A model generated the notes under the pieces. The model worked only from the letters and a program-made list of their open reading frames with translations, was not told the origin of the DNA and ran no database searches. Of a stretch of DNA of 33,418 nucleotides, positions 3,360 through 23,506 are shown in pieces (position 1 is the stretch's first letter; the number at the start of each line of letters is the position of its first letter). Source of the DNA: a virus; IMG/VR virus record IMGVR_UViG_3300025860_000045, positions 1 through 33,418 of that record, one strand, 5' to 3'. Both the position numbers and the translations under genes were made by a program.

Positions 3360-3764
3360 TTACTTGAGGGCTCCCAGCTTTATTGCTGGTTCGTCCTCAT
3401 CAATTAAAATCTTTACGACTAAAGTAGGGTGCCCTACTTGAACGCCATCCCACTCCAGCAAGGGGGAGTTAGGTCCTACCCCATACTCAGATGGTAGGGT
3501 GTCCGGCCCTTCAGGTTTTACCCTCATAAATTCGTTTAGATCGAACAGTTCGTTATCGTAGCGAAAGAACCTGCTAGTGTATTGTTCCCACACAAGATGG
3601 TCGGTTGGGTCTCCTAAGTAATCGACATCATGCCGTTCACCGCCCGTTAGGTCATACCCATTTAAAAGGGTGAACGACTCTAGTAGTAGGGTGATCTTTG
3701 GTTTGTTGGTTTGTTGGTTTGTTGGTTTGTTGGTTTGTTGGTTTGTTGGTTTGTTGGTTTTCAT
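3360..3764 (-). CDS. Putatively phase-variable protein with an octanucleotide repeat at its start (134 aa)
   Basis: From the ATG at 3764 the protein begins MKT and continues with a NKPTNQQT repeat coded by 8-bp units, then an unrecognised acidic domain of about 110 residues. The repeat unit is not a multiple of three and all three frames through it are open, so gain or loss of one unit would shift the downstream frame. This is the design of contingency loci. An upstream ATG at 3803 is also in frame; 3764 is preferred because MKT starts recur here. The promoter TTGACT-N17-TATAAG at 3827-3855 would start RNA near 3820. Function unknown. Confidence 0.66.
   Translation of the reverse strand: MKTNKPTNQQTNKPTNQQTNKPKITLLLESFTLLNGYDLTGGERHDVDYLGDPTDHLVWEQYTSRFFRYDNELFDLNEFMRVKPEGPDTLPSEYGVGPNSPLLEWDGVQVGHPTLVVKILIDEDEPAIKLGALK
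3697..3760 (-). repeat. Octanucleotide tandem repeat (GTTGGTTT)7 at the 5' end of a gene
   Basis: Seven perfect 8-bp copies (3705-3760) plus one imperfect copy begin two codons after the ATG at 3764. They encode NKPTNQQT repeats. The same unit occurs upstream of the gene starting at 2770. Confidence 0.95.
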
Positions 3765-6027: not shown

Positions 6028-8172
6028 ATGAAAACCAAGCATTATTCTTTAGCCAGCAGAGGTGCAGGAACCGAGGTATCAGATGATAATCCCCTACCGG
6101 TTGCTATAAAATCTGGGGGTGCCTCCGGATCAGGTGCTGCTTCATCTACGTCAAACTCTTCCACCACAATACTACCAGCGGGTGAAACTTTCGTTGGTGT
6201 GGGGGAGGAGAACGATTTCACGGATGTAATGGTTAGCTGCCAAACAGATCAGCCGGGGACTTTAAACTTTGAGTTTTCTGTAGATGGCACAAATTGGGGG
6301 TCATTCCCTGTGGGAGGTTTTGAAGTGGTAGCGGGTATCCATGAGTTTCATACCGCAGTAAAGGGGCCGAGGTTTTTCAGGGTTTCTTTGACCAACACAG
6401 GAGGGTCCGATCAAACTTTCTTACGTCTTCAAACATATTATGGGACCTTCGCGAAGCCCAACGCCCCCCTTGGACAAAATATTAATGATGATTCCGATGC
6501 CACCGTGGTTAAGAGTGTGGTTGTTGGAATCACTCCGTCTAATACTTACAGAAATCAGCCGGTATCTGGAACGGCCTTCTCCACCACTACGAACTTAGCG
6601 GCCAGTGAAACTTTTGATTCTGGATTCCTTGAACTGAGCAAGTATCAGCAGGTCCAGACTCATATCTTGTCCAGCCATGATGGGACGATACAAATTAGTT
6701 TTGCCGCTGATTCAGCGGGCACGGACATTGTCCGGTCGTTGACCATTCCTTATCGTGCGTCAACGGGATTCCAATTGTTTTCGGCCCCTGCCTTCGCGGA
6801 TTATGTGCGGTATGAATTTACCAATGATGCGGGAGTCACCACCACCGACTTACTCTACGAGACTAAGTTTTTGATTAACTCTTTGAGCGGGCAGTTGCTT
6901 GGGTTGAACGCCTCCTTGTCACCGAGCATGGTGGCTAACCTCGGCCGAAACGTGATTGTTGGCAGAGACAGCGCGGGTAATTTTCGCAATGTTCCTACTG
7001 ATACGGAGGGTAACCTAAAAATTAACGTTCATGAACCGACTACGGCCTTCGGGGATCTCCGAACCAGTGAGCTTACCCCACAAGCACAGATTACTTTCGC
7101 TTACTCGATCAATGCGGACATTGTTGATACCGACACTCTAAACGGCGGAACCGTGACTCAAGCGGATTCCATGGCTGTTTTGCAAACGTCCACTGATGCA
7201 GCGGGGTCCGCTCAGATGAACTCAAGACGCATCCTTAAATACCGTTCAGGGTTAGGTGCCTCGGTTAGATTCACGGGAATGTGGGAAAGTAGTGCGGCCG
7301 ACTCCACCCAACTTTTAGGGGTGGGAGATACCTCAGATGGGTTTTTCCTCGGGTATAATGGGACCAGCTTCGGTTTAATGTCGAGGCAAAACGAAACGGA
7401 CACTTGGATAGGGCGGGCTGCATGGAATATTGATACGATGGATGGAGCCGGAAACGCGGGGAATCCTTCGGGAGTCCTCCTCGATACCACTAAACTGAAT
7501 GTGTTCCAGATCCGATTCCAGTGGCTAGGTGCAGGACAGGTTGAATACGCGGCTGAAGATCCGACAACGGGGCGATTTGTTCCCGTCCATCGAATCCAAT
7601 ACGCCAACAATTATGTTTTGCCCAGCATCTACAATCCTTCGTTACCCTTGCATGGTGAGGTTGTTAATCAGGGTAATACCACCAATCTAGTGGTAAAGAC
7701 CGCCTCCATGGCCGCTTTTGTAGAGGGCCGCAGTATTGTTACGGGTCCTTCTAACGCTTACCAAGCGTCCTCCACCCACTCCACTGAAACCGCGTTCTTC
7801 CATCTTAGGAATAAGGGGACTTACCAATCGTTACAGAATCGGGTAAGCAGCATTGTGAGGCAGTTGTCTGTGGGTAATGATGCAAATACATTGTCCACGT
7901 TCCGGATGTATCTCAACGCTACTCTTTCGGGGACGGCCGCATGGGCCGATATTAATGGAGCGGATTCTGTAATGGAGGTGGACCAAGTGCAGGCCTACGT
8001 CTCAGGTGGAAAATTGTTGTTCGCGGGAACGGTGGGTAAAGACACTGGAGTATCCTTTCCCATGTCGGAATTGGATATTAATATCAGGCCCAACGATGTG
8101 CTAACCGTTACGTCAGCTTCCGGAAGTTCGGGCGCACAGAGCGCGAGTATTGTTTGGGTAGAGGACTTTTAA
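6028..8172 (+). CDS. Large virion structural protein with tandem beta domains (tail or head fibre-like)
   Basis: This 714-residue protein is rich in Thr, Ser, Gly and Asn, with no hydrophobic segment, typical of phage surface proteins. Two similar beta domains lie near residues 50-145 and 185-290. Each starts with an A-x-E-T-F motif and carries a strand such as LNFEFSVDGT or IQISFAADSAGT, then a segment ending with an aromatic-rich F-R/Y-E-F strand. This suggests an internal duplication. A Ser/Gly linker (about 30-45) follows the N-terminus. It is flanked by terminators on both sides, so it is an independent unit. A -10-like TATACT at 6017-6022 lies just 5 nt before the ATG. A receptor-binding or decoration role is inferred. 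Confidence 0.62.
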   Translation: MKTKHYSLASRGAGTEVSDDNPLPVAIKSGGASGSGAASSTSNSSTTILPAGETFVGVGEENDFTDVMVSCQTDQPGTLNFEFSVDGTNWGSFPVGGFEVVAGIHEFHTAVKGPRFFRVSLTNTGGSDQTFLRLQTYYGTFAKPNAPLGQNINDDSDATVVKSVVVGITPSNTYRNQPVSGTAFSTTTNLAASETFDSGFLELSKYQQVQTHILSSHDGTIQISFAADSAGTDIVRSLTIPYRASTGFQLFSAPAFADYVRYEFTNDAGVTTTDLLYETKFLINSLSGQLLGLNASLSPSMVANLGRNVIVGRDSAGNFRNVPTDTEGNLKINVHEPTTAFGDLRTSELTPQAQITFAYSINADIVDTDTLNGGTVTQADSMAVLQTSTDAAGSAQMNSRRILKYRSGLGASVRFTGMWESSAADSTQLLGVGDTSDGFFLGYNGTSFGLMSRQNETDTWIGRAAWNIDTMDGAGNAGNPSGVLLDTTKLNVFQIRFQWLGAGQVEYAAEDPTTGRFVPVHRIQYANNYVLPSIYNPSLPLHGEVVNQGNTTNLVVKTASMAAFVEGRSIVTGPSNAYQASSTHSTETAFFHLRNKGTYQSLQNRVSSIVRQLSVGNDANTLSTFRMYLNATLSGTAAWADINGADSVMEVDQVQAYVSGGKLLFAGTVGKDTGVSFPMSELDINIRPNDVLTVTSASGSSGAQSASIVWVEDF

Positions 8173-8198
8173 TCTAACATGGGAAAATTCTCTCCTTA

Positions 8199-8228
8199 CC
8201 CCCTCGATCCGGTTAGAGATCGAGGGGG
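8199..8228. terminator. Convergent terminator hairpin
   Basis: CCCCCTCGATC-CGGTTAGA-GATCGAGGGGG, a perfect 11-bp stem, lies between the end of the plus gene (8172) and the end of the minus gene (8253). T-runs are weak. Confidence 0.72.
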
Positions 8229-8252
8229 TTATGGATACAGGAGAGCTAGAGC

Positions 8253-8498
8253 TTATACCTGTTCCGCCTGATTGTTAGCAGTCGCCGCTTTGGTGACCAA
8301 TATGACGTTGCACGTTGCAACGCAATCAGCGCAGATATACACTACTCCCGCAGGGTTTCCCACCACAGGGATATCAAGCGAATACGCATCACGTCCGCAG
8401 AACGAACAGTGATAAAGACGCTTATGAGTCACTGACGCCGGGGCATCAACGATCTGTAAGTATCTCTTGGACTTAGTGAATGATTCTGAGTTTGCCAT
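8253..8498 (-). CDS. Orphan ClpX-type zinc-binding domain protein (81 aa)
   Basis: Residues 31-68 read CSFCGR, then 21 residues to VYICADCVATCNVILV. C31, C34, C56 and C59 match the four zinc ligands of the ClpX N-terminal zinc-binding domain, whose consensus starts CSFCGK and ends VYICDECV-LCN-II. No AAA+ motor follows; the whole protein is just this domain plus short tails. In ClpX this domain dimerises and binds adaptors and some substrates. A free copy could compete for adaptors, block substrate delivery or recruit ClpXP to phage substrates. The family match is by motif; the role is inference. The last eight codons lie in a 25-bp sequence repeated at 9095. The ATG at 8498 has a CATACCTAAATT leader. 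Confidence 0.78.
   Translation of the reverse strand: MANSESFTKSKRYLQIVDAPASVTHKRLYHCSFCGRDAYSLDIPVVGNPAGVVYICADCVATCNVILVTKAATANNQAEQV
8258..8282. repeat. 25-bp direct repeat, copy 1
   Basis: CCTGTTC-C-GCCTGATTGTTAGCAGT, differing from the copy at 9095-9119 at one base. It covers the last codons (T-A-N-N-Q-A-E-Q-V) of the ClpX-domain gene. Confidence 0.95.
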
Positions 8499-8566
8499 AA
8501 TTTAGGTATGTTCTTGTCTTTCTTGTCTGGGCCGCAGTATGTCGGGCTTAAATTCTAAAAGTGGAT

Positions 8567-8576
8567 CGGATAGGGC
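8567..8576 (-). promoter_or_regulatory. CGGATAGGGC motif upstream of the ClpX-domain gene
   Basis: On the minus strand it reads GCCCTATCCGA. The same 11-mer lies upstream of the minus genes starting at 9312 and 10859. The surrounding DNA is A/T-rich (8581-8596). It may be a phage-specific promoter or operator element; function unknown. Confidence 0.45.
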
Positions 8577-8624
8577 CCCATATTATATTATATTATCAGC
8601 CATGGATTTGGCGGCCGCCCTGAA

Positions 8625-8658
8625 CCCCTTTACAAGAGACTACTCTCCTATAAAGGGG
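8625..8658 (-). terminator. Hairpin downstream of the 8702-9016 gene
   Basis: CCCCTTTA/TAAAGGGG, an 8-bp stem, encloses a small inner AGAG/CTCT stem. It lies in the 203-bp gap between two minus genes. No T-run; a terminator or RNA-stability role is inferred. Confidence 0.5.
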
Positions 8659-8701
8659 ATCACCGGTGTCGGTTTGTTCCGACAACTCCGACCTTGGCCA
8701 A

Positions 8702-9016
8702 CTAAGGGCGTGAAGGAGCAGGAGGATTGTCTCCTGAAACCCATGCATTATCGGAACCCGCTGAGTGCAGTTCCAAATACAGGGGTTTGTTCTTAGTCTT
8801 GCGCTCGCGACCGCGATGCACAAAATCTGGATCGAGGGGATCTTCCAGATTGTCGAAGTAGAAGGCGATGATCGTCTTCTCTTCCTGTCGTAGGGCGCGT
8901 GACCATAGTTTAGCCATAGTCCGGCCTGCTTTCTTATTCCCGTGTCGCTTCTCGATTTTATCATACTTTGCAGCAGAGTATCGAGAACCCATTCTCTTTC
9001 TTTTTGTTGTTGCCAT
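8702..9016 (-). CDS. Small basic protein of unknown function (104 aa)
   Basis: The N-terminal 45 residues are strongly basic (MATTKRKRMGSRYSAAKYDK and HGNKKAGRTMAK), suggesting nucleic-acid binding. A more acidic middle (FDNLEDPLDPDF) and a Pro-rich tail follow. Family not recognised. An in-frame ATG eight codons downstream is an alternative start. The gene lies with the ClpX-domain gene in a segment bounded by 25-bp direct repeats. The hairpins at 9034-9089 lie upstream of it. Confidence 0.6.
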   Translation of the reverse strand: MATTKRKRMGSRYSAAKYDKIEKRHGNKKAGRTMAKLWSRALRQEEKTIIAFYFDNLEDPLDPDFVHRGRERKTKNKPLYLELHSAGSDNAWVSGDNPPAPSRP

Positions 9017-9033
9017 AGCGTGAAAAAAGTCTA

Positions 9034-9089
9034 GCGTTCCCCCCGAAAGGGGGAACGCAGTTCGCCTTGGGGGCTCTTAGAGCCCCCAA
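9034..9089. terminator. Tandem strong hairpins
   Basis: GCGTTCCCCC-CGAAA-GGGGGAACGC (9034-9058) and TTGGGGGCTC-TTA-GAGCCCCCAA (9067-9089), each with a 10-bp perfect stem, lie between the minus genes ending at 9112 and starting at 9016. They probably terminate or protect the transcript of the upstream gene. Confidence 0.65.
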
Positions 9090-9094
9090 AATCC

Positions 9095-9119
9095 CCTGTT
9101 CTGCCTGATTGTTAGCAGT
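9095..9119. repeat. 25-bp direct repeat, copy 2
   Basis: CCTGTTC-T-GCCTGATTGTTAGCAGT. It includes the stop codon of the gene at 9112-9312. The two copies flank an 812-bp segment with two genes. Confidence 0.95.
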
Positions 9120-9312
9120 ATTTGTTCGCCGGACGCATCTTGAATGGGGGATGCGAGTTCTTAATGAAACTCCCCTGAGTGCCAATGTTGGATATGCCCG
9201 TAACGGGACCAGACATTGACCGATCGAAGTTAGCCCGACGCTTGGCTTGGATCTTCATTACCGCCAGCTTTTGGCGCTGTTGTGGTGTTAGTTTTCGGAT
9301 GTGCTTGTTCAT
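9112..9312 (-). CDS. Small basic protein of unknown function (66 aa)
   Basis: The protein has a highly basic N-terminal helix (RKLTPQQRQKLAVMKIQAKR), then a Gly/Ser-rich stretch (GPVTGISNIGTQGSF). It could bind nucleic acid or be a structural accessory protein. Family not recognised. The ATG at 9312 is preceded by TATAGTT and the CGGATAGGG motif only 9 nt upstream. Its stop codon is inside a 25-bp direct repeat, suggesting that DNA to its left was inserted or duplicated at this gene's end. Confidence 0.62.
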   Translation of the reverse strand: MNKHIRKLTPQQRQKLAVMKIQAKRRANFDRSMSGPVTGISNIGTQGSFIKNSHPPFKMRPANKYC

Positions 9313-9321
9313 AACTATAAT

Positions 9322-9331
9322 CGGATAGGGC
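9322..9331 (-). promoter_or_regulatory. CGGATAGGGC motif nine bases from a start codon
   Basis: On the minus strand it reads CGAGCCCTATCCGA then TTATAGTT and the ATG at 9312. The 14-mer is identical to that in the hairpin loop at 10913-10926. Confidence 0.5.
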
Positions 9332-9350
9332 TCGATACCTTAAAAGTAAA

Positions 9351-9385
9351 AACCCGGGCCTCACCTTTGCGGCGAGGACCGGGTT
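9351..9385 (-). terminator. Rho-independent-like terminator after the 9406-9753 gene
   Basis: AACCCGG/CCGGGTT stem with an inner CCTC/GAGG. On the minus strand it is followed by TTTTTACTTTT, a good T-run. Confidence 0.75.
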
Positions 9386-9405
9386 ATGATGGAGGAGTCC
9401 GCAGA

Positions 9406-9753
9406 CTAGTGATTGCCTTGAAGCAGCATATAGCTGGCGTCAATCATCAAGCTCCGGGGGGTTTGCCATACCCCCGCGTTATTCCGTTCACCCGCTTTTG
9501 GGACCGAATACATATTGGAGGAGTCCTCCCATTCAGTCATTTCGGGGGTGGTATACCAGTAGATGTCCTGCACGGTATCTATGGAGATGCAGATTTCTTC
9601 GCAATCCGGATAATCGAAGGCCACCTCAACGGGGCCTACGAATGAGGACCCTGACCGGATTCGATCAATTTGGCTTCGGAGAGATTTTACCTCTTCCCGC
9701 AAGCGGCACAGATCGGATTCCATATCATCTATTAGTTTGGTTTGGTCTGTCAT
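9406..9753 (-). CDS. Coiled-coil protein of unknown function (115 aa)
   Basis: Residues 1-35 form a heptad-like coiled coil (KLIDDMESDLCRLREEVKSL). The rest is acidic and rich in Tyr and Trp (DIYWYTTPEMTEWED), probably a small beta domain. Family not recognised. The ATG at 9753 is preceded by the shared leader ACAAACCAATAAAACATACC, and the gene is followed by a terminator with a T-run on this strand, so it is well supported as a real gene. Function unknown. Confidence 0.7.
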   Translation of the reverse strand: MTDQTKLIDDMESDLCRLREEVKSLRSQIDRIRSGSSFVGPVEVAFDYPDCEEICISIDTVQDIYWYTTPEMTEWEDSSNMYSVPKAGERNNAGVWQTPRSLMIDASYMLLQGNH

Positions 9754-9779
9754 ATTTTTGGTATGTTTTATTGGTTTGT
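9754..9779 (-). promoter_or_regulatory. Shared A/C-rich translation leader (third copy)
   Basis: Minus-strand ACAAACCAATAAAACATACC then AAAAAT and the ATG at 9753. The 20-mer is identical to that at 618-640, about 9 kb away. Confidence 0.55.
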
Positions 9780-9827
9780 AAACAATGCCCCTCTCCTTAA
9801 ATCGCAGAGTGAGGCGGTAAAAAGTTT

Positions 9828-9850
9828 CCGGCTTGGTTTAGGTAAGCCGG
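9828..9850 (-). terminator. Hairpin with T-run after the small membrane peptide
   Basis: CCGGCTT/AAGCCGG, a 7-bp stem, is followed on the minus strand by AAACTTTTT. It lies 22 nt beyond the stop of the small ORF at 9873. Confidence 0.62.
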
Positions 9851-9872
9851 TGCCCCCGTTTGAGCGAGGAGA

Positions 9873-9962
9873 CTAGTCCTCTCGCCCCCGTAGTTCGTAA
9901 ACTACGTAGATCGTGAGCGCAATTATGGCGCTCAATATCAGCATTGGTGTCAATATCAGCAT
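9873..9962 (-). CDS. Candidate small membrane peptide (29 aa)
   Basis: An ORF from ATG 9962 encodes MLILTP and then MLILSAIIALTIYVVYELRGRED, a short single transmembrane segment with a charged C-terminus. A second in-frame ATG at 9944 gives 23 residues. The two starts lie in a direct repeat of CAATATCAGCATTGGT, so the N-terminus is duplicated. The leader AAACCA precedes the ATG and a hairpin with a T-run follows the stop, both as for real genes here. Small phage membrane peptides of this size include inhibitors and lysis or toxin-like factors. The call rests on topology and context only. Confidence 0.45.
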   Translation of the reverse strand: MLILTPMLILSAIIALTIYVVYELRGRED

Positions 9963-9990
9963 TGGTTTGGCTGGTTGAGGTTAATCCGGC

Positions 9991-10275
9991 CTAGGTGGTT
10001 ACGGGGGGCAATAATGCCCTTCCGATGCCATCTACACCGATGATGATTTGGTCAATCCGATTAGGATTGTCCGTGAATGTCACAAGGACTAAGGTCTCTC
10101 CGCTTGGAAGCGGAGTTGTCCAGTCAATCTGACAATGGTAAGCCGTTTTAAGGGCATTTGATATGTCCCCCGACCGGTTCAGAATCGGTGGGGTGGTCTC
10201 ACCGTAGAAACACATTACTCTGTGAAGTAATGAAGCTTTAACGGGCTGGTTTTGTTTGCAGTATTGCATGTTCAT
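9991..10275 (-). CDS. Small protein of unknown function (94 aa)
   Basis: Not recognised. It has a Cys/His-containing N-terminus (YCKQNQ, HRVMCFYG) and a beta-rich C-terminus (GETLVLVTFTDNPNRIDQIIIGVDGIGRALLP). The ATG at 10275 has another in-frame ATG two codons on. It follows a hairpin (10287-10312), which probably ends the previous transcript or processes the mRNA. It is one of a run of leftward small genes, the usual place for host-takeover factors. Confidence 0.58.
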   Translation of the reverse strand: MNMQYCKQNQPVKASLLHRVMCFYGETTPPILNRSGDISNALKTAYHCQIDWTTPLPSGETLVLVTFTDNPNRIDQIIIGVDGIGRALLPPVTT

Positions 10276-10286
10276 AAATTGTGTCC

Positions 10287-10312
10287 CTCTGTAGGAGATA
10301 ACTCCTACAGAG
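10287..10312. terminator. Perfect 11-bp hairpin
   Basis: CTCTGTAGGAG-ATAA-CTCCTACAGAG lies between two minus genes. There is no T-run. It may be a terminator or processing site. Confidence 0.6.
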
Positions 10313-10326
10313 AGATTCGCGGCATT

Positions 10327-10563
10327 TTACAACTCTAACCAGTGTTTACTGGTTCTAGCTACCCACACTCTTCCCCGCTTGGGGAAGATTGTGGAGGCCG
10401 GAGCGTTGGTGTCCCCGTCCCCCCTCACCCTATCCGGGTGGCTGGGGGCTGCTGGGCTATGGATAACAATTGAATCGCCGCGTGCGGGCAGTTGCATGTT
10501 AGCAAGATCACTTGCGATTGTTATCGGTGTGGCGGTGGTGGTGGCGGTGGTGTGGTGGTGCAT
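10327..10563 (-). CDS. Possible small protein, His/Thr-rich N-terminus (78 aa)
   Basis: From ATG 10563 the frame begins MHHHTTATTTATPIT and continues into a charged domain ending RVWVARTSKHWLEL. It is in the same orientation as all neighbours and starts just after the terminator at 10580-10613. The low-complexity Thr/Ala start comes from a repeated GGTGGC-type stretch. An overlapping plus-strand frame has a hydrophobic segment but would have to read through that terminator, so the minus frame is preferred. Neither is certain. Confidence 0.42.
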   Translation of the reverse strand: MHHHTTATTTATPITIASDLANMQLPARGDSIVIHSPAAPSHPDRVRGDGDTNAPASTIFPKRGRVWVARTSKHWLEL

Positions 10564-10579
10564 AAAGAAAGTGATACAC

Positions 10580-10613
10580 AAAAAAGACCACCTGCAGCGA
10601 GGTGGTCTTTTTT
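10580..10613. terminator. Bidirectional rho-independent terminator
   Basis: AAAAAAGACCACC/GGTGGTCTTTTTT, a 13-bp stem with A- and T-runs on both sides, is a classic two-way terminator. It ends the gene at 10629-10859. Confidence 0.9.
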
Positions 10614-10628
10614 GGTGGAGTATCGGGA

Positions 10629-10859
10629 TTAGAACGTCCAGATCTGTTTGATCTGCTTGACGAACTTCTCCTTATTATAATTCTCGTTGCCCCAAAGGGC
10701 TAACGAGAACTCCTCGTCCTTGTAAACGTTGCGGCATTGCCGCTCGGTTATTAGTCCCTCCTGATGGAGAGACAGTGCGTAGGCCCTAAGGGGCGTGATT
10801 GAGGTTGTTACCCTCGTTCTTGGTGTTTTTGTTGGTTTGTTGGTATCGGTGTTAGCCAT
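10629..10859 (-). CDS. Small protein of unknown function (76 aa)
   Basis: The N-terminus (NTDTNKPTKTPRTR) is disordered and basic and carries one and a half units of the AACCAACA octamer repeat. Residues 24-60 look helical (RAYALSLHQEGLITERQCRN) and the tail is basic and aromatic (KQIKQIWTF). Family not recognised. The ATG at 10859 is preceded by CTATTTATT. A 14-bp hairpin holding the CGGATAGGG motif lies 28 bp upstream, and a strong bidirectional terminator follows, so the gene is a self-contained unit. Confidence 0.66.
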   Translation of the reverse strand: MANTDTNKPTKTPRTRVTTSITPLRAYALSLHQEGLITERQCRNVYKDEEFSLALWGNENYNKEKFVKQIKQIWTF

Positions 10860-10886
10860 AATAAATAGAGTGTCTGAAATTATAAA

Positions 10887-10940
10887 TGTTGTATGCAACG
10901 CTGGAGAAGGCCTCGGATAGGGCTCGCGTTGCATACAACA
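10887..10940. promoter_or_regulatory. Long hairpin carrying the CGGATAGGG motif in its loop
   Basis: A perfect 14-bp stem (10887-10900 with 10927-10940, TGTTGTATGCAACG and complement) presents a 26-nt loop that contains CGAGCCCTATCCGA on the minus strand. It lies upstream of the minus gene starting at 10859 and at the left edge of the structured non-coding region. It could be a recognition hairpin or part of the large RNA. Confidence 0.6.
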
Positions 10941-11779
10941 AATCGTTTGGGAACAATTTGTGTTTGTTCTTCCTAGGCTCTCCAGACGCCTCACCTAGCC
11001 GCATTTGGCGTAGGAGTGTTGGCCTCTGGAGAGGTATAGGATTAACAAAACCCACGGAAAAACCGTGGATTGAAGTGGGTTTTCAAGATGACGGTATTTA
11101 CCCCGTCCGATGAGATGCTAGCGCCGCTCTTCCTCCAGTTTCATTCTACGTAACAACGTAGAAAGCCCGCCGTTATCATAGGCGAGCTGGATGCATTGGT
11201 GCATTGTCTCAAAGTGTTGGATTCCGTTTCAGGATTAGCCTCGCAAGGCATTAGGGCGTCCAACCGCCACTCATTTTAAATCTATACGCCACTAGTAACC
11301 TCCGATTAAGGAAACGTATGTCAAAACCAGCCCGCTTGCTAATGCGGTTTTGTTTGCTGGACTACGGGAAAATGAACCCCACTGTGAAAGTCCCCAAAGG
11401 TTTGACAGGAGAGCCTAGTAGCGTCGGACGGAAGCCTGTGAACCTCGTTCCATTATGCTATTTCGTGTCGTTAGCGTGGTTTTTACACCTTGCACTAAGC
11501 GCGTTGATCTCGGACTAAGCAACAATTTCTGTAATGTTTGACTCCAAATCGACAACTGGTGGCATACGCCTGCTAAGGACGCATCAGTCGTCTGTTACGC
11601 GGGAATAAGAGGTTCAACCTCTTGCAAGACACCTTTGAATAAGGCCGCAAGCCGCGTGGTAGTTCAAATATCCAGCCGAAAAAGTTATTTTTTTGCCGTT
11701 CAATCGAATCACGAAAGCTCCCTTCAATTCGGGATAAATTCTATGCTGTTAATGATCAGTTTGGCTCCCCCCTACGGTA

Positions 11780-12000
11780 GGACGTATCCGCGTAAGGCGA
11801 GGCTGAGGCGCGTCTCTTAACTTTCTGGCTCTCCTCTAGGCGACGTATCGCCCTTCAGATGCCTTACTCGCCCCCTTGCCCGACGTATCAGGCTTTAAGT
11901 GCTGCGACCGCAACACCGTTAGGTTAAAAACATGGTCCGACTATTTTGTCGTGCCCTCATGTGGTGCTAGATGGCAGGGACGTATCCCTTGCAATCTAGC
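11780..12000 (-). repeat. Four hairpins sharing a GA-UACG-UC cap
   Basis: GATACGTC (minus strand) occurs at 11780-11789, 11839-11852, 11878-11893 and 11966-12000, each time at the tip of a hairpin with a different stem: GGA/TCC, GGCGA/TCGCC, GCCTGA/TCGGGC and AGGGA/TCCCT. The last extends to a further 7-bp GCTAGAT/ATCTAGC stem. Identical caps on compensating stems suggest conserved RNA structure, not a plain sequence repeat. Confidence 0.75.
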
Positions 12001-12018
12001 TGAATCCTTAGATTCACC

Positions 12019-12083
12019 TCCGCCATCACCTGATAGGGTGATGGCGGAAGAGAATCCCCGCCCCACCGTGAGGTGGGGCGGGG
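12019..12083. terminator. Two perfect 12-bp hairpins
   Basis: TCCGCCATCACC-TGATAG-GGTGATGGCGGA (12019-12048) and CCCCGCCCCACC-GTGA-GGTGGGGCGGGG (12056-12083). The second has a GNRA-type loop on the plus strand. They lie just beyond the stop of the minus gene at 12095. Neither has a T-run. They may end that transcript or cap the structured RNA. Confidence 0.65.
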
Positions 12084-12094
12084 TAGTCCTTCGG

Positions 12095-12367
12095 TTATCC
12101 CTTGAGACTGATGGTGGCCTCCGGAAAGGCCTCCGCTAACTTCGAGAGGTTTACCCAGGTTTCAATGGTCTGGGCCAACCTCCGGTGGACCGCTGGGTCC
12201 CCCGCCTCTGCCTTGAGGCAGAGTTTGAATGCGTTACTCCCTTCGGAGTAGATTTTTGACTTCGTCGAGGCCAACTTGACCTCCCGAAAATACTCAGGCT
12301 TGGATTTCGTTTGGCTCTGGATCTGCGAGAACAAATCCGATATAGTTTCTACGATAGGTTTAGCCAT
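12095..12367 (-). CDS. Small helical protein of unknown function (90 aa)
   Basis: An all-helical pattern is predicted by eye: ISDLFSQIQSQTK, then FREVKLASTKSKIYSEGSNA, then LAQTIETWVNLSKLAEAF. The frame is open further upstream, but the ATG at 12367 is chosen for its TACCTATTATATT leader and M-A-K start. The family is not recognised. It is the first minus gene left of the divergent control region at 12368-13138, a position typical of early regulators. Function unknown. Confidence 0.66.
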   Translation of the reverse strand: MAKPIVETISDLFSQIQSQTKSKPEYFREVKLASTKSKIYSEGSNAFKLCLKAEAGDPAVHRRLAQTIETWVNLSKLAEAFPEATISLKG

Positions 12368-12710
12368 AATATAATAGGTATTCAAAGGAGAGCAGTCCGT
12401 TAACTGGAATTTCCAGACCGTAGTGGCCGAACCACTCTCACTAGTATACGTATCTACTACGTATGGTAGGGAGTCCCCCACTGTAGCAGGGGCCACGGGG
12501 GAGGGGGCCGTGCCCCATCGGGGCGGCGGGGATTAGTATCAGTCCCTGTAAAATTTCCCCCATATTTTCTATATACGTATTTAATAAGGGAATAAAGTAT
12601 AGAGTAGAGTGAATGTGAACAGTCTTTTGGGCAAAAGTGCCGACCCCCTTTAGGTGCTAATAATACAACTAGAATCCTGAACACGTCGTAATATCAATAA
12701 AAGTTGAATG

Positions 12711-12796
12711 CTCCCAATGTAGGGATGTAGAGAGAAACTTTTTAGACAACCCTGTTGGTGAAAAACCCTTCTCTCAGAAATCCCTATGTTTGGGAG
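12711..12796. other. Long three-segment hairpin
   Basis: CTCCCA/TGGGAG, AGGGAT/ATCCCT and GAGAGAA/TTCTCTC pair in order, with small internal loops (4x5 and 3x4), giving 19 bp around a roughly 32-nt apical loop. Confidence 0.75.
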
Positions 12797-12827
12797 ACAA
12801 CTCGTTAAAGGTAAACAAGTTAGAGAT

Positions 12828-12993: not shown

Positions 12994-13085
12994 ACCTAGG
13001 CTGTGGCCCATTAGTAGGGTTGCCTGAGATAAAAAATAATTACAATAGATGCTTTACTATTGTTTATCTCAACCTAGGCTGCGGC
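12994..13085. repeat. Iteron-like direct repeats flanking a hairpin
   Basis: ACCTAGGCTGTGGC (12994-13007) and ACCTAGGCTGCGGC (13072-13085) match at 13 of 14 positions. Between them lies the hairpin TGAGATAAA/TTTATCTCA with an inner CAATAG/CTATTG (13025-13071). Confidence 0.82.
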
Positions 13086-13138: not shown

Positions 13139-14140
13139 ATGAAAACTACAGATCCCTACCGGAATATTGTCCTAGGCACCATTGTCGTGGTCCTTTTGAT
13201 GGCCTTGAGCAAGAAATACGATATCCCGCCCCGAAAATCCCCTGCCCCAACAACTACCACCCAAGATGCTCGCTCCGCTTATGACGGGGAAGGCTCCGAC
13301 AATGACTTGTTACCTCCCTACTTTGGACCCGACTCCGATCCCGCCTCCGAGGATGTCCCGTATGAGGAACCTTTGTCCACACCACGGTATATCACTTATG
13401 AAGGACTTATTTCTCAAGGCATCCCCCGTAAAGGCTCCTCACCGCTTTGGACATGGGTTTGGCAGTATAGTGGCAATCCAGTGGATACCCTCGCTCACGT
13501 CCACGTTCTCGACGCGGAGGACCACTCTGCGGAAGACTTCAAGACCGTAATGGAAAAAGGATCGTTCCCCGTGGCCTATATATCTTGTTCATTTGAGGAC
13601 TGGCGTTCGGACGCTTCTGACTGGGCTGCCGCCGATAAGGGCAAGAAAATGAGCGGATGGGACGAACGATGGCCTTCTGCAACCTCAATCAAGGACCACC
13701 ATTCAAACCTGTGGAGTGTTTACGAGGGACGAGTCCGACGCTTGGCCGAGAAACTGGCTCCAATCACCGCCCCGGACCCCACAACCCGCCGATGTGGCAT
13801 TGAGTGGGATAATGTGGACCTCTATGACTCCATTGATTTAGGGACTACTGAGGGAGTAAGGTTCCTCAAGAGACTCAAGCAGCTTACTGAACATTATGGT
13901 TTCATCTTTGTTTTGAAGAACTCGGTGGAAGTTATTGACCTCCTGCCAAACGTTGAGATGTATATCAATGAGCAGGGGCAGCAATACAACGAAATCCAAG
14001 CCTACGCGGAAGTCGGTAAAAAGGTCCCTGTGTTGAATGTGGAGTATCGTAAGAAGCCCAAAAGCTCCCCTCCCTATGTATTCACTTTGTTTTACACGAA
14101 TACAGGCAACATAAACGGGGTTGCAGAAGTCATAGAATAA
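13139..14140 (+). CDS. Membrane-anchored GH114-like glycoside hydrolase
   Basis: A signal-anchor helix at residues 10-23 (IVLGTIVVVLLMAL) is followed by a Pro/Thr/Asp-rich linker (about 32-80) and a domain matching the GH114 endo-alpha-1,4-polygalactosaminidase family. Visible family motifs are WQYSG (108-112), VLDAED (123-128), VAYISC..EDWR (145-156), GIEWDNVDLY (220-229), LKNS (259-262), NEQGQQYNE (277-285) and a final GKKVPVLNVEY (293-303). Conserved acids E222, D224 and E278 are candidates for catalysis. Such enzymes cleave galactosamine-rich exopolysaccharide. Here it would sit on the outer face of the host membrane. It leads a plus-strand unit right of the control region; ATG 13139 follows AACTAATT. 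Confidence 0.78.
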   Translation: MKTTDPYRNIVLGTIVVVLLMALSKKYDIPPRKSPAPTTTTQDARSAYDGEGSDNDLLPPYFGPDSDPASEDVPYEEPLSTPRYITYEGLISQGIPRKGSSPLWTWVWQYSGNPVDTLAHVHVLDAEDHSAEDFKTVMEKGSFPVAYISCSFEDWRSDASDWAAADKGKKMSGWDERWPSATSIKDHHSNLWSVYEGRVRRLAEKLAPITAPDPTTRRCGIEWDNVDLYDSIDLGTTEGVRFLKRLKQLTEHYGFIFVLKNSVEVIDLLPNVEMYINEQGQQYNEIQAYAEVGKKVPVLNVEYRKKPKSSPPYVFTLFYTNTGNINGVAEVIE

Positions 14141-14193
14141 GGGTAAAGGTAACCATTATACGTATTTTATACTGAATGTGAACGCACGGAAGA

Positions 14194-15763: not shown

Positions 15764-15800
15764 GGCCCACCCTCATACGTGAGGGTGGGCCTTTTTTTTT
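15764..15800 (+). terminator. Strong rho-independent terminator with a TACG loop
   Basis: GGCCCACCCTCA-TACG-TGAGGGTGGGCC, a 12-bp stem with an A-TACG-T cap, is followed by nine Ts (15792-15800). It separates convergent genes. The same A-UACG-U cap recurs on the minus strand in the structured region at 11780-12000. Confidence 0.93.
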
Positions 15801-21013: not shown

Positions 21014-23506
21014 TTAGTTTTTTATTCTACTTATATAGTTAACGTCATCACCGTGAGAGATAAAATCTTCCGATTCTAGTTCACTAACGACTTCGGCAAC
21101 TAAAGCTTTCTTCTTACCCGTTTTTGCGAAACTCGCAACGAGTTTTTCATACCCTGTAATGGGGTAGGATTTAATCCCTTCAAAGAACCCCTCAAGAGCG
21201 GCCCCCTCTTCGTCGGGAGAAATGCTCTCCCTAAGAATACCCCAAGCGGCCTTTGGACAAGTAATCGCCCGCCGACCTTTTCTAGTCTTAACCTCAAATC
21301 CGGGAATTTCAATTCCTTCCTCGAAAATCATTTCCCTAGCCTTGGCCTTCCATTCCTTAATCGCCTCTTCAGCGATGGGAGCCAGAATCAATAGCTGACT
21401 CATTATTTCCGGATCAGATACACACGCACCGCTAACAATCTCCGGTATATTCAGAACCTCACCCCCTCCGTGAAATCTCTTAGCCACCCCCGCAAGCATA
21501 CTAGCCAAGGCAGGACAATGGCCCGCATGAGCGCAATATTCGCAGGTATAGGGAGTTGGGTTAAGGTCCTCTATTGTCGCGGCTTCAAAGTTATGTCGGA
21601 ATTTTTTACCCGTTGCTATTACAGCAGAAATCTCCACCAGTATGTCTTGCATGTCATCCCTTGAGAATGTATGAGAAAGAATCTCATCACGTTGGCAACA
21701 AATTAAGTAAAAATGGATGGTATCAATTTCGGGGAATTTTTGAAAGGCCCCAAGAGCGTAGGCTTTAGCTTGCAAGTTGACGGCGGGCTCTTCTACAGCA
21801 TGGCGTCCAGTCTTATAGTCGATTTGTATGGCCTCAGTCCCTTGGATGCTGAAGCGGTCGCAGGTCCCGAAGGTTTCTTCGCCAAGCAGTTTAATAATCA
21901 ATCGAATCTCTTTATAGTCTTTGAAGTCATCAAACCCGAGATTCGTAAAGATGAGATCTTCTACGCGTTGGGTGTATTCAGCGAGTGAAGATTCCCAATC
22001 ACTTAAAGCAGACCAGTCTCCTGTTTCCAAGGCTAGGTGAACCCGTGTCCCCATTTCCGCCGCTGGATTAGTCCCTGATTTACTTTTATACCCCGCGCAT
22101 ATCTTCACCAGCTTTAACGATGAAGGCCCAAACTCCGCATGGTCCTCTACTCCACCTTCAACCTTAATTACCTCTTCTGTTTTCATGGTGGTATTAGATA
22201 CGTCACTTTCAGTGTGAAGCAAGTCTAAATTATTGAGTTTTACCATCATTCTTTCTATGATGTCCTTCTCTATAGTATCAGCCGCTACCAGTATTTGTTG
22301 CAAGGAGGGGGTTAAGTTCCCCACTCGGTCAACCCTACCCAATATCTGTTTAAACTCTTTGGCATTATAGGTAGGGGAGATCAACGCTACGCGGGGATGC
22401 CCACCAAGTTTATCATGCAGGCTAACCCCTACCCCACCCGCAGAGGTGTTACACAGGATTACTCTACTGGAGTTAGCTTGGAAACTAGCTATATAGTCAT
22501 CTCGTTCAGTTTTAGATTGCCCACCCATTACAAACCCGTGGGGTTCGGTCAATCTTCTGGATACCGCATTAATAGAATCCGTAAAGTTCAGGAATACCGC
22601 TACTGAATTACCCTCGCTCCTATGGCTTTCTATTAGGGTAACGATATCAGGGACTTTCAATATTTCTATCTCCTGACGCAACCGAAGCAGCTTAGTAATA
22701 GCAATAGGCTCATCCCCGTCTAATTCACGATGCTCCTCAATCTTTTCGAGTTCGTCATTCAGTTCCTTTACCAGCGTTCTAATCTTGGATGTCTGGGAGA
22801 AGTTTATCGGAGTGGTCATAACCTTACATTCCGAGAAGTGGGTCCCCAAATCTTCGCGAGTGAGACGACTGCCTCTTGAGGGGTAGATTAGTTTATGAAG
22901 GTCCTTTAAGCGGTGAGCCTCCGAATCGGGGAATTGAAGGGAGCCCCATGTATCAAACTTACACCCCCATGCCTTAGCCCAGTCCCAAAAATTACTCAAG
23001 GTATGCAGATCAAGAGCATACCCGATAGATCTCATTTCGCGGGGGTCCTCGGCGGCGGTTGCTGAAAGGAGCAGGGTCCGGATATTTTGGGCGCGGGCAC
23101 TGGAAAGCAAATTAGAATTGAGGGTCCTAACCCCCTTGGCTTTGTGAACCTCATCAAATATAAGAACGGTATCTCTTTGAGATACGGTCCAAAGAAAACC
23201 CTTCTTACCTCGGCGTTTAACGACGTGGCCTATGCGACCACCCCGAAGTTTTTCCCAAGTGAAGATACCTCCGTGGGAACACTTCTGTCCCTCAAAAGTA
23301 GTTTCCCATGCGGAGACTACCGCTTTCGGGCAAACCACGATCGGGGTAAGGCCCAGCCCTTTGACCGTCTCGATTGCACACAGGGTTTTACCACAACCAG
23401 TTTCAGAAGAGTCGAGGGCGCACCCCACTTTTTTAAGGGATTCTTGGAGGGAGAGAACGTGTTTTGATTGGACATCGAATAGAGTTAACATTTTTTGGCT
23501 TTGCAT
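21014..23506 (-). CDS. SF2 helicase fused to a Cas4/RecB-like nuclease
   Basis: Residues 1-430 form an SNF2-like SF2 ATPase: motif I SSETGCGKT (33-41), motif II DEVH (118-121), motif III SAT (148-150) and motif VI QILGRVDRVG (387-396). Residues 441-830 form a PD-(D/E)XK nuclease of the RecB/Cas4 class: H490, D550 and D563-x-K565 (IDYKTG). Four Cys (C470, C655, C658, C664) could hold an Fe-S cluster as in Cas4 and AddB. An internal Met441 begins MKTEEV after a leader ATACCACC like those of real starts, so a separate nuclease may also be made. The fusion could process DNA ends for recombination. It lies 9 nt after the resolvase gene. Confidence 0.86.
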   Translation of the reverse strand: MQSQKMLTLFDVQSKHVLSLQESLKKVGCALDSSETGCGKTLCAIETVKGLGLTPIVVCPKAVVSAWETTFEGQKCSHGGIFTWEKLRGGRIGHVVKRRGKKGFLWTVSQRDTVLIFDEVHKAKGVRTLNSNLLSSARAQNIRTLLLSATAAEDPREMRSIGYALDLHTLSNFWDWAKAWGCKFDTWGSLQFPDSEAHRLKDLHKLIYPSRGSRLTREDLGTHFSECKVMTTPINFSQTSKIRTLVKELNDELEKIEEHRELDGDEPIAITKLLRLRQEIEILKVPDIVTLIESHRSEGNSVAVFLNFTDSINAVSRRLTEPHGFVMGGQSKTERDDYIASFQANSSRVILCNTSAGGVGVSLHDKLGGHPRVALISPTYNAKEFKQILGRVDRVGNLTPSLQQILVAADTIEKDIIERMMVKLNNLDLLHTESDVSNTTMKTEEVIKVEGGVEDHAEFGPSSLKLVKICAGYKSKSGTNPAAEMGTRVHLALETGDWSALSDWESSLAEYTQRVEDLIFTNLGFDDFKDYKEIRLIIKLLGEETFGTCDRFSIQGTEAIQIDYKTGRHAVEEPAVNLQAKAYALGAFQKFPEIDTIHFYLICCQRDEILSHTFSRDDMQDILVEISAVIATGKKFRHNFEAATIEDLNPTPYTCEYCAHAGHCPALASMLAGVAKRFHGGGEVLNIPEIVSGACVSDPEIMSQLLILAPIAEEAIKEWKAKAREMIFEEGIEIPGFEVKTRKGRRAITCPKAAWGILRESISPDEEGAALEGFFEGIKSYPITGYEKLVASFAKTGKKKALVAEVVSELESEDFISHGDDVNYISRIKN

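Follow-up and report, generated by a model that had tools for sequence, protein, structure and literature searches.

The 33,418 bases of IMG/VR record IMGVR_UViG_3300025860_000045, which is linear by class and was analysed over its whole length (hereafter the window), encode a family A DNA polymerase, a primase-like protein, a helicase with a Cas4-like nuclease domain, a small terminase-like protein, and a structural protein. With these genes, the window is recognizable as a tailed phage, either whole or as a fragment. Relatives of the DNA polymerase are numerous in IMG/VR at identities of no more than 39%, and no close relative of the virus was found except for one identical 6.3-kb contig matched via the helicase. 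Searches through neighbouring proteins likewise gave no relatives for the GH114 gene, the primase, or the two small genes that flank the stretch described below, with the helicase leading to this same contig only.

Several other features of the window were recorded along the way. Positions 13139-14140 hold a gene of glycoside hydrolase family GH114 (E 1.6e-27) with 0 relatives among 50,697 phage records, and its untranslated leader (12994-13085) carries a direct repeat, ACCTAGGCTGyGGC, together with an inverted repeat, TGAGATAAAAAATA/TATTGTTTATCTCA. The plus-strand pair TATACGTATTT ... GAATGTGAAC is common to positions 12572-12622 and 14157-14184, ahead of rightward genes in both cases, and is a possible phage promoter. 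A single protein encoded at 21014-23506 fuses a helicase C-terminal domain to a DUF2800/PD-(D/E)XK nuclease domain, while the small minus-strand gene at 8253-8498 encodes an 81-aa protein with a lone ClpX C4-type zinc finger (E 6.8e-8). Two other small-gene ends on the minus strand have a 25-base repeat in common, CCTGTTCyGCCTGATTGTTAGCAGT (8258-8282 and 9095-9119, 96% identical). Tandem arrays comprise 16 perfect CCATCG copies at the record edge (1-96), inside the minus-strand frame 3-617, and two perfect arrays of 8-base units, TGTTGGTT and TTGGTTTG, at 2770-2812 and 3698-3760.

The stretch of interest, positions 10,887-12,083, lies between two small leftward genes. On its upstream side, the minus-strand gene at 12095-12367 encodes a 90-aa protein beginning MAKPIVETISDLF, for which we found no PHROGs match, only a sub-threshold Pfam match, and no tblastn match in phage records. 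Just past the stop codon of this gene, a minus-strand double hairpin at 12,011-12,083 (z -10.0 over the 77 nt from 12,009 to 12,085; 0/200 shuffles) is formed by inverted repeats in the order of a 12-bp GC stem (12083-12056), then ATTCTCTT, and then a hairpin of ca. 19 bp (12056-12011). The first stem starts 12 nt after the upstream stop and is followed by ATTCTCTTCC. It has the form of an intrinsic terminator, a GC-rich stem just past a stop codon with a T-rich run behind it on the coding strand, and was listed as terminator-like on the minus strand, though its T run is weak. We interpret the hairpins at 12,083-12,011 as serving termination or processing for the upstream gene.

At the other end, a perfect 15-bp minus-strand hairpin (10,887-10,940; z -7.1) ends 27 nt before the start codon of the downstream gene (10629-10859, minus strand), which encodes a 76-aa protein beginning MANTDTNKPTKTP and has coding-like codon usage (0.034 per codon vs a null of -0.111). 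Downstream of the stop codon of this gene, also on the minus strand, follows a terminator-like inverted repeat at 10,579-10,614 (15 bp, 100% complementary) with a T run on both strands. Inside the stretch, next to the 15-bp hairpin, lies a long irregular minus-strand hairpin at 10,963-11,049 with arms 11049-11025 and 10986-10963 and inner helices (pair probabilities 0.9-1.0), which folds at z -6.6 on the minus strand (0/200 shuffles) and -3.8 on the plus strand. The nested stems that had been named at 10,972-11,040 are thus real and present as this single long hairpin. A promoter scan found none that stood out at either end of the stretch, with promoter-like sites no more frequent than in shuffles. 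As the outermost hairpins adjoin the upstream stop and the downstream start, the two ends of the claimed unit may belong to the flanking genes.

The loop of the 10,887-10,940 hairpin holds CCCTATCCG, a dispersed 9-mer of this phage. No dispersed word of the window is more over-represented than its reverse complement CGGATAGGG, with 10 copies vs about 0.3 (0.29) expected, mostly in one orientation and in genes and gaps alike (plus strand: 774, 2076, 4085, 4235, 8567, 9322, 10914, and 30086; minus strand: 5953 and 10427). Three of the CGGATAGGG/CCCTATCCG copies shortly precede starts of small minus-strand genes, i.e., the one at 10914 and two others at the genes starting at 9,312 and 8,498.

The stretch has no detectable coding potential. 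Within 10,860-12,095, stop-free stretches of at least 30 codons score at or near the non-coding level of codon usage (on a per-codon scale with a wrong-frame null mean of -0.111 and a coding mean of 0.086), and the few slightly positive ones are merely 32-36 codons long. Six-frame translations had no match in PHROGs or Pfam at a threshold as lax as E<=1, which bears out the earlier statement that there is no credible protein at 10,887-12,083. We also considered a decayed gene and rejected it, as the six frames hold no trace of one against PHROGs or Pfam.

The amount of RNA structure exceeds that of shuffled sequences, and the minus strand, which is the strand of both flanking genes, folds better than the plus strand in nearly every piece compared. 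Single folds of 1 kb reach z -4.8 on the minus strand and -3.3 on the plus strand (20 shuffles), the fold of 10,942-12,009 reaches -7.1 and -3.1, and the fold of 11,051-12,009 reaches -3.8 (0/60 shuffles as good) and -1.7, respectively. The coordinates given by the first-pass annotation could also suggest a giant RNA read on the plus strand from 10,887 to 12,083. Its support consists of the z of -3.1 over 10,942-12,009 together with an AT-rich stretch directly before 10,887, but the plus strand is the weaker one almost throughout, this direction opposes both flanking genes, and one of the UACG hairpins described below loses a pair on this strand, so that we regard a plus-strand RNA as very unlikely.

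This structure is unevenly distributed, with the excess stability sitting in a few strong elements toward the ends: 12,083-12,011, 12,001-11,768, 11,049-10,963, and 10,940-10,887 on the minus strand, as judged from folds against shuffles. The middle part (11,051-11,767) is marginal, with z -2.1 on the minus strand (2/100 shuffles) and -1.8 on the plus strand (5/100), and its 400-nt windows do not stand apart from the genome background (mean -0.8, sd 1.3), e.g., z -0.03 and -1.6 on the minus strand for the central ones starting at 11,201 and 11,401. It contains local minus-strand hairpins at 11,188-11,144 (z -4.5 for 11,140-11,192) and a candidate long-range arm pairing 11,835-11,798 with 11,447-11,407 on the minus strand (pair probabilities 0.85-0.93). 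The compound stem that had been described at 11,398-11,445 falls into this near-chance region and pairs best with distant partners, which are not the same on the two strands.

Hairpin number is ordinary as well: stems of at least 6 bp with loops of 3-10 nt amount to 27 on the minus strand vs 20.1+-5.3 in shuffles and to 22 vs 22.7+-4.7 on the plus strand. The impression of at least fourteen hairpins in near-continuous succession as a mark of unusual density is therefore not borne out, and most of the claimed density was dropped once counts and local energies had been compared with those of shuffles. The boundaries of 10,887-12,083 are not special within the window either. Neighbouring minus-strand stretches at 8.6-9.2 and 9.8-10.8 kb, small genes among them, match its degree of structure or come close to it. 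Minus-strand z values of about -4 to -9 also occur at 8.6-9.4 and 9.8-10.8 kb, with 400-nt peaks of -6.8 (8,601-9,000), -9.4 (10,001-10,400), and -7.3 (10,201-10,600) in regions that take in coding sequence of small genes. Over the whole small-gene cluster at 8000-12800, coding sequence as well as gaps, the minus strand folds much better than shuffles, and 400-nt windows reach z values of about -10. This hairpin-rich zone of ca. 8.0-12.8 kb on the minus strand weakens the case for the stretch as a unit of its own, and because equally structured parts of the cluster include coding sequence, strong folding at this locus does not have to signify an RNA gene. What survives of the proposed large ornate RNA of ca. 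1.2 kb is a non-coding and significantly structured stretch of phage DNA; its existence as one unit is not demonstrated, given the ordinary hairpin count, the near-chance middle, an equally structured surrounding cluster, and two ends that look like the hairpins with which the flanking leftward genes end and begin.

One feature stands out from this pattern. Between 11,768 and 12,001 on the minus strand, the motif positions and pairing table define four hairpins that share the apex GA-UACG-UC, with apex 8-mers at 11979-11986, 11882-11889, 11842-11849, and 11781-11788. Three of these hairpins have stems of 5-6 bp around the UACG loop (AGGGA/UCCCU, GCCUGA/UCGGGC, and GGGCGA/UCGCCU) that differ from each other yet remain complementary, and in the fourth, an outer stem of 7 bp encloses an inner one of only 3 bp (GGA/UCC). 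Differing stems under one apex are what selection for the hairpin gives. The minus strand of the window has no GATACGTC copies besides these four, which share one orientation and lie within about 206-210 nt, and the plus strand has a single copy at 22,197. Three hairpins per sequence with an identical apex and at least 3 further pairs arose in 0/3000 dinucleotide shuffles, a somewhat generous figure given that the UACG motif had been spotted by eye before the shuffle test. Of the 12 flanking positions in the UACG hairpins, 10 are paired, for which random pairing gives a P of about 0.0016, and the segment 11,768-12,009 folds at z -3.5 on the minus strand (0/200 shuffles) and -1.6 on the plus strand. 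The second hairpin includes a U-G pair on the minus strand that reads as C-A on the plus strand. An A-UACG-U apex also tops a 12-bp terminator-like hairpin at 15,769-15,785, and for this reason the apex may merely be a stable loop favoured by this phage, i.e., a UNCG-like tetraloop, rather than a protein site.

The same repeats could instead act at the level of DNA, for example as a replication origin or an array of binding sites in which ACGTATC repeats are recognized in the DNA duplex and the inverted repeats either extrude or are bound by protein. The direct orientation of the four GACGTATC copies would suit such an element, as would related ACGTAT sites just upstream, at 12,445-12,464 and 12,572 in the divergent promoter region. 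Against it speak the irregular spacings of the repeats (97, 40, and 61) and a cumulative GC skew that has no turning point in the stretch and peaks at about 14.4-15 kb. Hairpin arms that vary and still stay complementary, including through a U-G pair, moreover fit RNA pairing better than a fixed protein site, and we consider a DNA-level element unlikely.

No homologue of the stretch was found in IMG/VR, GTDB genomes, or phage or plasmid records, although relatives may exist outside these sets. A blastn search against phages and plasmids gave 0 matches, as did an exact 20-base probe, and blastn against 50 related virus records gave only short matches (14-27 bases; E 0.02 to 0.9). The UACG cluster was also turned into a covariance model, which had 0 matches in 49 related records; built from one sequence, this model has little power for distant relatives, and its positive control was the window itself only. 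The only compensation seen is internal, among the UACG hairpins. Two further leads were discarded: long ORF-poor gaps of some relatives, inspected by eye, had nothing recognizable in common with the stretch, and triple GATACGTC patterns in IMG/VR (9 and 8 stretches) were, in those that we read, unrelated tandem repeats, many of them in open frames.

Our favoured reading, to which we assign a probability of about 0.42 and which we prefer to both an ordinary spacer and a DNA element, is that the stretch is a leftward segment that is not translated, that its repeated hairpins form a genuine cluster, and that it may be a stable structured RNA. It joins the lack of coding, minus-strand structure above shuffles at both ends, and a repeated apex with compensating stems. 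The stretch would then be the untranslated part of a minus-strand transcription unit of small phage genes, running leftward from the terminator or processing hairpins (12,083-12,011) through the UACG cluster (12,001-11,768) and the weak middle to the hairpin at 11,049-10,963 and the leader hairpin at 10,940-10,887. Most probably, a structured RNA would be cut or terminated out of this leftward transcript, with the section that the end hairpins bracket (about 12,001-10,963) kept as a stable molecule. The repeated UACG hairpins would be stable caps, or else sites at which a single partner docks. We infer the transcription, processing, stability, partner, and any function of such a leftward RNA. 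Points that count against this reading are the lack of a detected homologue, the absence of an outstanding promoter, the near-chance middle, and the equal structure of nearby stretches that include coding sequence.

Much of this is what an ordinary intergenic spacer would look like, i.e., terminator hairpins of one small gene and a leader hairpin of the next, separated by sequence that is unselected or has decayed, and no RNA that works as a unit. The strongest hairpins lie directly beside the flanking genes, structure in the middle is close to chance, hairpins occur in ordinary number, and similar hairpin-rich gaps separate other small leftward genes at 9.75-9.99 and 10.28-10.63 kb. Yet termination needs neither four same-apex hairpins with compensating stems nor the hairpin at 10,963-11,049, 1.2 kb is a long gap by phage standards, and the six frames hold no trace of a decayed gene. 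A mere spacer is thus a serious alternative, but one that we hold to be doubtful.

Beyond the favoured reading of an untranslated leftward segment, a new giant RNA is possible. In its fullest form, this would be a new class of phage RNA of ca. 1.0 kb, running leftward from about 12,001 to 10,963, in which a repeated hairpin module, constant in its apex GA-UACG-UC and free to vary in its stems, could build a multivalent scaffold for protein or RNA-RNA contacts; this specific proposal appears rather improbable to us. A discrete RNA from this locus, if there is one, would be a large structured orphan in a phage lineage that has no close relatives in the collections searched, and the repeated UACG-capped hairpins would offer a direct handle on its binding partner. 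If there is no such RNA, the locus is a warning that hairpin density judged by eye can reflect the terminators and leaders of small genes.

Among known systems, the giant phage RNAs GOLLD and ROOL are the natural comparison. The first-pass annotation had remarked that nothing assigns the stretch to either, and this view holds in gathering, lax, and direct model searches alike, including the Rfam search for both families that it had proposed (0 matches to either). No Rfam family, GOLLD and ROOL included, reaches its gathering threshold, and a lax Rfam scan (E<=10) of 10,200-12,700 gave chance-like matches far below gathering scores, with no GOLLD, ROOL, OLE, HEARO, or intron match in the stretch. 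Searched directly over the whole window, the GOLLD model (RF02032; gathering score 150 bits) gave no match at E<=10. The ROOL model (RF03087; gathering score 99.1 bits) also had 0 matches at E<=10, a weaker negative since its positive control was without a match as well, and its weight is shared with both Rfam scans. Both RNAs are often found near tRNA islands, an association that is frequent but not obligatory for GOLLD (PMC12286853), whereas the 33.4-kb window, which may be a fragment, has no tRNA gene. Phage location and size alone would favour a divergent GOLLD or ROOL RNA, and with neither model matching at E<=10 or in the lax scan, we find this highly improbable.

The stretch resembles GOLLD, an RNA that forms homo-oligomeric cages (PMC12286853), in being large, non-coding, structured, and located in a phage, but differs in that it has no model match, no tRNA nearby, and no conserved homologues that we could find, and in that its structure is concentrated at the ends. 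The ROOL class is marked by a conserved secondary structure with covariation support. The stretch is similarly a large non-coding structured stretch of phage sequence with hairpins in long succession, but it lacks a model match, a nearby tRNA, and detected homologues. The intrinsic terminators and leaders of phage operons are like the end hairpins, which adjoin stop and start codons on the coding strand, but they do not explain the UACG-hairpin cluster or the hairpin at 10,963-11,049. Any discrete RNA made from this locus would stand outside GOLLD and ROOL.
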